A DNA stretch of 60,441 bases, taken from positions 1-60,441 of the forward strand of contig NZ_LIPT01000017.1 in NCBI RefSeq assembly GCF_001418225.1. Reading direction: 5' to 3'. Within the stretch, counting starts at the first letter, position 1. The number at the start of each line of letters is the position of its first letter. Below are positions 46,731 to 48,307 of the stretch, piece after piece. This stretch comes from Pannonibacter indicus (lineage in GTDB: Bacteria; Pseudomonadota; Alphaproteobacteria; Rhizobiales; Stappiaceae). Under the pieces are notes generated by a model. The model made no database searches. It was not told the DNA's origin and saw only the letters and a list, made by a program, of their open reading frames with translations. Position numbers and translations under genes: made by a program.

Positions 46731-47059
46731 TCCGCGCCGCTCCGCACTGGCGGAGCCCTCGCCCGCGCCATCCCCGTGGCCGCACATGGCAGAGCGCAGG
46801 ACATGATCTTCCTTCAAGAAGCCCGCAAGGTATCACCTTGCGGGCTTCTTGCTGTTTGTGCGCTCTCTTTCACCTCCGTCATGGCACGACGGAAAGGGAT
46901 GGCTCGATGCATTGTAAACTGGGCCCTGACGCAATCATGCGGCCCATGGCTTTGAACGTTCGCCATCTCCCTCTTACCGGAACTTTCAAGGTCTATCTCT
47001 CCGGGTATCCTCTCCGGCCGCTACTGTCTGAACATGTAAACGGCATGGAGACGAAACCG
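46731..47059. other. Intergenic region between rpmG and the precursor-peptide genes
   Basis: 329 bases. It contains the rpmG terminator, then about 200 bases that must hold the promoter for the peptide genes. The frame is open from 46838 into the first peptide gene, but the upstream part lacks a leader-like sequence and is not taken as coding. No clear promoter hexamers could be assigned. Confidence 0.5.
46816..46857 (+). terminator. Rho-independent terminator after rpmG
   Basis: A perfect 15-bp stem (AAGAAGCCCGCAAGG, 46816-46830; CCTTGCGGGCTTCTT, 46836-46850) with a 5-base loop, followed by a short T-containing run. It separates rpmG from the peptide genes. Confidence 0.9.
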
Positions 47060-47449
47060 ATGGATATGATGCTGGATACCCGCCAGACCCTGGAGACGGC
47101 CATTCGCACGAGGGCCGGTGAGGACCCTGCCTTCCGCACTATGCTGCTGACAGACGCCAATACGCTGCTTGAAGAGGTTTTCGGATCGCAGGGTATTCCT
47201 GGCCTGCAGATCAGAATCATTGAGGAGAAACCCGGCGAAGTCGTTCTGGTTTTACCTGCCATTCCGTCTGAAGCTCGCGATGAACTGTCCGCGCAGGATC
47301 TCGACAAGGTCTCCGGCGGCATGCCGTCACAGGCCGAAATCATGGCCTTCCTGAATTCTCCGGCACGCCAGGCAGCCTTTGAAGCGTTGGTCAGCCATAT
47401 CAACAACGCTGTATTCGGCCGGTCGCCTGTGATTGGCAACATGCGCTGA
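47060..47449 (+). CDS. NHLP-type RiPP precursor peptide 1
   Basis: Peptide of 129 residues. The leader (1-87) has the nitrile-hydratase-like pattern: RAGEDPAFRTMLLTDANTLL, then IRIIEEKPGEVVLVLPAIPS, then LSAQDLDKVSGG, ending in a double glycine (86-87) where C39-type peptidase exporters cut. The predicted core (88-129, 42 residues) has no Cys and contains an amphipathic stretch (AEIMAFLNSPARQAAFEALV). GGAG lies 8 bases upstream of ATG 47060. It is followed 34 bases later by precursor 2. The leader call is strong; the final product and the modifying enzymes are unknown, as no such genes lie in the window. Confidence 0.85.
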   Translation: MDMMLDTRQTLETAIRTRAGEDPAFRTMLLTDANTLLEEVFGSQGIPGLQIRIIEEKPGEVVLVLPAIPSEARDELSAQDLDKVSGGMPSQAEIMAFLNSPARQAAFEALVSHINNAVFGRSPVIGNMR

Positions 47450-47483
47450 CACGCTTTCACGCAAAACTGGCAAAGGCCTGAAT

Positions 47484-47864
47484 ATGACAAAACCGTCCAT
47501 CACCAGCCGCATCGAACTTGAAGCTGCCATCCAGAGCAAGGCAGCGGAGGACAGCGCCTTCCGCGCCGCGCTACTGGCCAATCCGGCCACCGCATTGGAA
47601 GCTGCCTTCGGCATCGCTGCGCAGCCGGGCGTCAGCATCCGTGTCATCGAGGAAAAACCGGGCGAAGTGGCGCTGGTGCTGCCAGCGGGCGCAGGTGAGC
47701 TTTCCGGCAAGGATCTGGAGGCCGTAGCCGGCGGCTACGCCGTCAATGCGCAGGTGACCGATTCCGTCACCCAAGCAAACACGAAGCACCCCGGCGATGG
47801 CAACAACGCCATGGGCTGGGATGGCAGTCCCTACTCGATCCGCTTCCCTTTCTTCCCCCGATGA
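47484..47864 (+). CDS. NHLP-type RiPP precursor peptide 2
   Basis: Peptide of 126 residues. The leader (1-84) closely parallels precursor 1: KAAEDSAFRAALLANPATAL, VSIRVIEEKPGEVALVLPAG and LSGKDLEAVAGG, double glycine at 83-84. The core (85-126) differs completely: YAVNAQVTDSVTQANTKHPG, a DGNNAMGWDGS segment and an aromatic tail RFPFFPR, with no Cys. ATG 47484 has AAAGG upstream; a longer frame from 47433 overlaps precursor 1 and adds a Cys/Lys-rich stretch unlike the other leaders. Its stop is 23 bases before precursor 3. Confidence 0.87.
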   Translation: MTKPSITSRIELEAAIQSKAAEDSAFRAALLANPATALEAAFGIAAQPGVSIRVIEEKPGEVALVLPAGAGELSGKDLEAVAGGYAVNAQVTDSVTQANTKHPGDGNNAMGWDGSPYSIRFPFFPR

Positions 47865-47887
47865 TCCGGCGATGAAGGACCAAACTC

Positions 47888-48307
47888 ATGACAACGCCAC
47901 TTCCCGCCCGTCTCGCCTGTGAAGCCCTGCTGCGTGAGAAGGCAGCAAGTGATGCTGAGTTTCGAGCAAGGCTCGTCAGCAACCCGGCTGAAGCCATAGG
48001 TGAAGCCTTCGGACAGGCGCCCAAGGGCGATCTGACCTTCCGTGTCATCGAGGAAGTGCCCGGTGAGGTGGTGCTCGTGCTGCCGCCCCTGCCCGGTGAA
48101 CTGTCCGACGCACAGCTGGCAGCCGCATCCGGCGGCTACACTCTCACGATCAACAATTCGGGTAGTGGCAGCTCTGGCTTCTTCATCTTCCAGAAGGGCC
48201 CGCAGACCGGCGGTCCCGCGTCTATTGCATGGTCCACATTGCCGGGCGGCTCAGGCGCCGGCACAAGCTTTACCTGGAACATCAATTACGGCACATCCTG
48301 GTGGTGA
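47888..48307 (+). CDS. NHLP-type RiPP precursor peptide 3
   Basis: Peptide of 139 residues. The leader (1-83) has EKAASDAEFRARLVSNPAEA, FRVIEEVPGEVVLVLPPLPG and LSDAQLAAASGG, ending in a double glycine (82-83). The core (84-139, 56 residues) is Gly/Ser/Thr/Asn-rich, with an SGSGSSGFFIF segment, GGSGAGTSFTWNINYGTSWW at the end and no Cys. It is unrelated to the other two cores. AAGGA precedes the ATG. It is the last gene of the cluster, with a convergent membrane-protein gene behind it. Confidence 0.87.
   Translation: MTTPLPARLACEALLREKAASDAEFRARLVSNPAEAIGEAFGQAPKGDLTFRVIEEVPGEVVLVLPPLPGELSDAQLAAASGGYTLTINNSGSGSSGFFIFQKGPQTGGPASIAWSTLPGGSGAGTSFTWNINYGTSWW

Follow-up and report, generated by a model that had tools for sequence, protein, structure and literature searches.

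Three tandem genes for NHLP-type leaders in Pannonibacter indicus, two of whose predicted cores resemble segments of RebB and RhiA

In Pannonibacter indicus, three adjacent small genes encode predicted precursors with leaders of the NHLP (proteusin) type, and the cores of two of them resemble the N-terminal segments of the R-body subunit RebB (core 2) and of RhiA (core 3). The original prediction, made from the letters of the window (the whole stretch of DNA analysed, 60,441 nucleotides, which is the entire contig C17 of the genome), described the trio as orphan NHLP-type RiPP precursors and overlooked the Reb and RhiA likeness of two of the three cores, which changes the subject of the finding. 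On balance, we favor the explanation that NHLP leaders captured Reb and RhiA fragments and would export them as mimics. The features of the locus are as follows.

46815 to 46851, + strand: terminator-like hairpin with a 17-pair stem, upstream of the trio and 3' of a 55-aa ORF
47060 to 47449, + strand: gene 1, NHLP-leader precursor of 129 aa (leader 87 aa, core 42 aa)
47321 to 47446, + strand: core of gene 1, without Cys and without Lys (by composition)
47484 to 47864, + strand: gene 2, NHLP-leader precursor of 126 aa (leader 84 aa, core 42 aa)
47742 to 47816, + strand: RebB-like segment of core 2 (VNAQVTDSVTQANTKHPGD...AMG), from tblastn, Reb HMM and PF11747
47888 to 48307, + strand: gene 3, NHLP-leader precursor of 139 aa (leader 83 aa, core 56 aa)
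48137 to 48301, + strand: RhiA-like segment, almost all of core 3, from RhiA-family HMM and tblastn

The predicted arrangement of three small genes that lie 34 and 23 bases apart, each preceded by its own ribosome binding site, was confirmed by ORFs at these positions and by purine-rich GGAG, AAAGG and AAGGA sequences ending 7 to 9 bases before each ATG. An alternative TTG start at 46838 would give an ORF of 203 aa for gene 1. Two terminator-like sites were found, with 1.1 expected by chance; the hairpin at 46815 to 46851, which follows an ORF that we take to encode ribosomal protein L33, at most hints that the trio is transcribed as a unit of its own. None of the neighboring ORFs judged by eye (about 44.5 to 52.5 kb) resembled a maturation enzyme, and genome-wide searches for C39, YcaO and LanC-like proteins gave none on contig C17, in keeping with the claim that the window holds no such enzyme.

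The whole proteins of genes 1 to 3 were 37 to 46% identical. Their N-terminal 83 to 87 residues had been described as alike and as NHLP leaders, for which a search with the HMM TIGR03793 had been proposed. All three genes matched this model at E values that place the likeness beyond chance, gene 2 (65.5 bits, E 2.8e-18) above the curated cut-off of 50.9 and genes 1 (48.8 bits, E 4.7e-13) and 3 (50.8 bits, E 1.1e-13) just under it. Each leader ended in ELSxxxLxxx(A/S)GG and thus also contained L(X)4L, which the consulted part of PMC12455567 describes as a motif of NHLP leaders; in an alignment of 20 precursors, L73, L78, G83 and G84 (gene 2 numbering) were invariant. A Nif11 leader was rejected, no Nif11 model being among the families listed for the three genes at E <= 1. 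The structure model of gene 2 had a mean pLDDT of 51, with about 71 to 74 for the first helices and 36 to 40 for the core. Its two best matches among 350,542 PDB chains were solved proteusin leaders (E 5e-3 and 1.2e-2), with zero matches at E <= 0.001; a profile of the 20 precursors found the same two leaders at E 2.2e-15 and 1.8e-14, followed by nitrile hydratase alpha subunits. The core portions in both structure models were of very low confidence (pLDDT about 26 to 40) and not interpretable. By sequence comparison, it is established that the predicted leaders of the trio are of the NHLP/proteusin type.

Searching the window's genome with gene 2 revealed 12 matches, ten of them strong (E <= 1.9e-9, gene 2 counted). 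These ten NHLP precursors were distributed over four loci, with three in the window, four on contig C4, two on C19 and one on C20. The seven outside the window had cores of 20 to 26 residues, every one containing a single Cys and between one and four Lys; the window cores were longer (42, 42 and 56 residues) and lacked Cys, with one Lys each in cores 2 and 3. Near the C20 precursor lies an NHLM export set. It consists of an outer-membrane NodT-type protein, of HlyD at 304.3 bits against a cut-off of 156.2, of ABC1, which includes a C39 peptidase, at 971.8 against 853.3, and of ABC2 at 707.4, marginally under the cut-off of 709.4. A partial match to TIGR03896 (101.5 bits against 161.05) was also found in the set. 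The C39 Cys, His and Asp are visible in the exporter sequence. Homologues of TolC, HlyD, ABC1 and ABC2 were present in the other four Pannonibacter genomes (G001 to G004); each of the five had one NHLM exporter, ABC1 was above its cut-off in all of them, and NHLP matches numbered 11 to 13 per genome. With precursors so dispersed and a single NHLM exporter per genome, cluster-limited mining would miss most of them.

The genome scan thus located the C39-peptidase exporter that had been anticipated outside the window. Of the three outcomes named beforehand as refuting the prediction, two, a lack of NHLP or Nif11 leader matches and a genome devoid of C39 exporters, were looked for and did not occur. 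The claim of a RiPP family matured in trans stood as far as NHLM/C39 export machinery on another contig is concerned, whereas the label "RiPP" is an assumption because post-translational modification of the cores is not shown. Export of the predicted trio peptides in trans is well supported, and we infer that the C20 exporter probably serves the window genes. A second C39 protein, on contig C23, is the less likely candidate. It reached 209.7 bits, far below the 853.3 required by TIGR03796, although the stretch scanned truncates the protein. Its locus (L169:5806-7555, exporter from about 1800) carries a second C39-ABC system and two other Gly-Gly-leader ORFs, of 100 aa and of about 105 aa if starting at an internal ATG, as well as a GNAT-like ORF 27% identical to a C20 GNAT-like protein (E 1.3e-9). 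The low C39 score, together with these Gly-Gly-leader ORFs and this GNAT-like neighbor of its own, makes C20 the likelier exporter for the window genes.

Two GNAT-like genes adjoin the C20 precursor, and such a pair beside an NHLP precursor was found in all five Pannonibacter genomes. Neither had an NCBIfam match; one protein matched Pfam Acetyltransf_1 above the cut-off (25.9 bits), and the second aligned with the first at 32% identity (E about 1e-38 to 1e-40). The proposed genome-wide check for maturation enzymes yielded one YcaO but no LanC-like protein. A lanthipeptide was rejected on the latter result, and a TOMM because the sole YcaO (C14:49598-50584) is unlinked to the window genes, as are the GNATs. 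Within about 1 kb of this YcaO (L168:7482-9850) lies a weak NHLP-like ORF (E 2.9e-5), and the two may possibly form a third peptide locus. Elsewhere, NHLP arrays (L011, L012, L013, L054, L057, L060 and L062) held two to eight further precursors whose cores are short and in most cases contain one Cys; among these, the core NAK(E/D)CWWKFNQWAYKQDW was nearly unchanged across all five Pannonibacter genomes.

The cores were searched by tblastn against 72,556 plasmids. Core 2 alone gave 12 records, nine of which were annotated as RebB family R-body protein (E 0.2 to 3): seven from Azospirillum, one from Eleftheria and one on the killer plasmid of Caedibacter taeniospiralis. The remaining three were an unannotated Photobacterium record and two unrelated ones. 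These matches were individually weak (E 0.2 to 9), and their weight lies in which genes are matched. A Reb HMM, built from 31 sequences of the window's family (Stappiaceae) that include Pannonibacter's own and are in part overlapping or cut at locus ends, scored four gene 2 cores at 17.2 (window), 23.8, 17.6 and 11.0 bits; in each case, none of 2000 shuffles did as well. The fifth core, from G004, has the same sequence as the G003 core. The HMM did not match nine Cys-type cores used as controls, core 1 or two gene 3 cores.

Positions 1 to 14 of the PF11747 model matched core 2 at E 0.11. For the gene 2 family its scores were 13.1 to 16.0 bits where listed (cut-off 24) and confined to model positions 1 to 22 of 68, with no match in two of four gene 2 relatives scanned. 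The signatures of Reb domain 1 are given as QITD and KxxxD/E in the part of PMC13430693 consulted. Two of the five gene 2 orthologues had QVTD and KHPGD in their cores and three had QIVD without the D/E, and the NAV and QQQ motifs of Reb domain 3 were absent from all five. Given these sub-cut-off Pfam scores and the missing NAV and QQQ, gene 2 itself is not a Reb protein. Its predicted core is nevertheless shown to resemble, beyond composition, the segment that forms the N terminus (domain 1) in R-body subunits.

Genes for Reb proteins above the Pfam cut-off were found in 19 of 61 genomes searched, including all five of Pannonibacter. Recent copying from these resident genes was rejected as the source of core 2: the best pairs with Pannonibacter's own Reb segments were only 9 to 12 of 19 identical, and the core 2 segment was no closer to these than to the Reb segments of other genera (68 to 79% over 19 to 21 residues). 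In the window's genome, a reb cluster on contig C1 (L094:10217-15666) adjoins what by eye is a sigma-factor-like ORF. A sequence search with one Reb protein found no solved Reb structure.

Likeness to the other end of a Reb protein was seen in P. phragmitetus (G002). On contig C8 of this genome, the neighbor of the exporter-linked NHLP gene is a precursor whose tail finishes with GVSDNLVSLLTVLNSF and nine further residues, compared with the C terminus GVSDNLTSLLTVLQSFS of a Reb protein of the window's genome. The Reb HMM gave this core 14.6 bits, with 0 of 2000 shuffles as good, and its sole tblastn record was an annotated RebB of Ruegeria pomeroyi (E 4). The leader-core junction is Ala-Gly, not Gly-Gly, and the precursor was seen in G002 only.

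Gene 3 matched the N-terminal part of open frames of 256 to 257 aa in two further genomes (G013 and G036), and the 256-aa RhiA-family protein of G013, used as query, recovered gene 3 at E 6.6e-7. Against the plasmids, the same protein gave 46 records, and 21 of the 30 matches listed were annotated "protein rhiA." An HMM of the RhiA family, built from ten proteins, scored core 3 at 40.2 bits with an alignment of 55 residues to the RhiA N terminus (HMM positions 64 to 121 of 262), and the G002 core at 33.7 bits; for each, 0 of 2000 shuffles were as good. Both tblastn records of core 3 (E 4 each, annotated as hypothetical protein) were sites that the RhiA-family query also matches. Predicted core 3 is thereby shown to resemble an N-terminal RhiA segment beyond composition.

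The RhiA match was strong in only these two of the five gene 3 orthologues. The cores of G001 and G004 reached 9.3 and 7.4 bits, barely above their best shuffles (8.4 and 6.8), and aligned with a late RhiA motif (F.P.P.YW), not with the N terminus; that of G003 failed to stand out from its shuffles, 190 of 2000 scoring as well, and neither the G001 nor the G003 core retrieved a RhiA from the plasmids. The G003 and G004 orthologues (L052:8387-8788 and L053:8048-8428) have near-identical leaders and very different cores, the former resembling the N-terminal RhiA motif by eye only and the latter the later one. At 56 residues, core 3 falls short of the about 200 residues of a full-length RhiA, and gene 3 itself is not a RhiA protein; the five Pannonibacter genomes yielded no full-length RhiA at E <= 0.1, and a sequence search with one RhiA protein found no solved structure. 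The RhiA-family open frame of G036 (L066:730-3668) lies near a tail-collar protein and a weak match to the inclusion body protein PixA (E 0.003), and in two of four annotated rhizobial records rhiA is followed by a tail-fiber or phage-tail gene.

Core 1 showed no similarity to the Reb and RhiA HMMs. The one plasmid record that tblastn gave for it (E 0.8) falls within a 650-aa ORF that is unrelated, and no relative was found in 14 NHLP-bearing stretches of G001 to G004 (best E 1.5). The four other Pannonibacter genomes showed no orthologue of gene 1; at the P. phragmitetus locus the gene 1 stretch is missing between flanks that are about 93 to 94% identical.

These core comparisons bear on the reading that fares best among the alternatives, although we regard it as unlikely: the genes would be ordinary orphan NHLP RiPP precursors whose cores are modified by GNAT-like or other enzymes into a bioactive peptide, and the Reb and RhiA likeness would be convergence on helix- or strand-forming sequence. 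The seven other strong precursors, of the same leader family and genome and with one Cys and one to four Lys in their cores, are consistent with it. So is the single Lys in each of cores 2 and 3, since GNATs acylate Lys or ornithine in selidamides, of which at least phaeornamide has an NHLP-family precursor according to the consulted portion of PMC9505594. Convergence is harder to reconcile with same-composition shuffles that never match the scores of cores 2 and 3, with unguided tblastn searches that returned mostly RebB for the one and RhiA-homologue sites alone (two of two) for the other, and with the failure of the nine Cys-type controls to match Reb. Core 1, with neither Cys nor Lys, also speaks against this reading.

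The pair of genes 2 and 3 is carried by the other four Pannonibacter genomes, so that, with one genome per species, each gene has orthologues in five of five, and the Gly-Gly/L(X)4L site is retained in all of them. Named records matching gene 3 were P. phragmitetus DSM 14782, P. carbonis and Pannonibacter sp. SL95. The pair has the same flanks in the window's genome and G002; in G001, G003 and G004 it occupies another site, bordered by two similar large genes that, by their look, we take to encode vitamin-B12-dependent ribonucleotide reductases. A profile of gene 2 (alignment A1) detected relatives in 7 of 385 genomes of the class (E <= 1e-8) and 1 of 398 of the phylum (1e-7), the window's genome counted in both, and in 6 of 87 of the family (1e-6), namely the five Pannonibacter genomes and G034; absences in this distribution are soft because candidates were scored only in part in many genomes (10 to 11 for class and phylum, up to 48 for the family). 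By eye, no Reb-like or RhiA-like core was seen outside Pannonibacter in the 30 class-search loci listed and G034.

Between the window's genome and G002, its closest partner in the comparison, leaders were more constrained than cores. For gene 2, dN and dS were 0.098 and 0.478 in the leader (dN/dS about 0.2) and 0.285 and 0.992 in the core (about 0.3); for gene 3, they were 0.069 and 0.599 in the leader (about 0.1) and 0.229 and 0.762 in the core (about 0.3). In the cores of both genes, dN was below dS in every pair for which both were estimable, with ratios up to about 0.6.

A second alternative, less probable still, is that nothing is exported: the NHLP domain would be a small folded carrier, and the Reb-like and RhiA-like tails would act inside the cell, e.g., by capping or timing R-body growth. 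R-body formation is cytoplasmic according to the part of PMC8322103 consulted, and reb genes are present in all five genomes. RhiA, too, is placed in the cytoplasm by the consulted part of PMC2275737 (2008), where it is described as highly expressed, of no known function and undetected in the supernatant. However, a tail confined to the cell would hardly account for a cleavage site conserved in five orthologues each of genes 2 and 3 or for a matching exporter in five of five genomes, and full-length RhiA went undetected in these genomes at E <= 0.1. Weakest, and very improbable, is that the genes are functionless accidental fusions of leader genes to gene fragments, now drifting: cores that diverge faster than leaders, with the higher of the above ratios in some pairs, a gene 1 seen in one of five genomes and the contrast between G003 and G004 in gene 3 would fit, but genes 2 and 3 retain open reading frames in all five genomes and in two different chromosomal settings, and their cores keep dN below dS in every pair for which both were estimable.

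In the capture explanation that we prefer, the three genes would be NHLP precursors processed in trans. The leader would deliver each precursor to the NHLM exporter (C39-ABC1, ABC2, HlyD and a NodT/TolC-type channel), the C39 domain would cleave after Gly-Gly, and a tail of 42 to 56 residues, perhaps acylated by GNAT-like enzymes before export, would leave the cell. Leader genes would have fused with fragments of reb and rhiA, and the peptides, once released, may act as mimics by binding, capping or seeding assemblies that consist of the full-length proteins or are recognized by them. We consider the anatomy of the trio and its export route likely, and hold the Reb and RhiA ancestry of the cores with comparable confidence; the mimic function is put forward tentatively from sequence likeness. 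A broader proposal, that Pannonibacter joined NHLP leaders to the N terminus of an R-body subunit, to its C terminus and to RhiA, and that the exported mimics would control, seed or block R-body and RhiA-type assemblies in the producer, its kin or hosts, seems to us possible but doubtful.

Genus-wide export-tagged peptides that copy Reb and RhiA segments would offer a handle on the control of R-body assembly and on the function of RhiA. If the explanation holds, capture of pieces from unrelated abundant proteins would be a route by which cores of exported peptides are born. In the literature searched, which lay mostly outside subscription journals, we found no description of a leader paired with a Reb or RhiA core, and no paper joining R-bodies with RiPPs or nitrile hydratase with R-bodies or RebB.

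Among known systems, RebB (PF11747) shares with core 2 an N-terminal segment of 19 to 22 residues that carries Q(I/V)TD, joined by KxxxD in two species; gene 2 differs in the NHLP leader in front, in having no NAV or QQQ and in scoring below the Pfam cut-off. RhiA, the rhizosphere-expressed protein of Rhizobium, aligns at its N terminus with core 3 over 55 residues, but the remainder of RhiA (roughly 145 residues or more) is lacking, and a leader with a Gly-Gly site stands in front. With the selidamide systems, as far as the consulted part of PMC9505594 describes them, the five Pannonibacter genomes share GNAT-like genes beside an NHLP precursor, whereas the window's genome has no LanC-like protein and its GNATs are unlinked to the window genes. 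Kinship with the NHLP/proteusin precursors (e.g., those of polytheonamide, MprE and phaeornamide) lies in the leader HMM, the leader fold (gene 2 model), the L(X)4L and Gly-Gly motifs and the NHLM exporter in the genome; the trio is set apart from these in that no modifying enzyme was seen beside it and by cores 2 and 3, which resemble segments of proteins that are not RiPPs.
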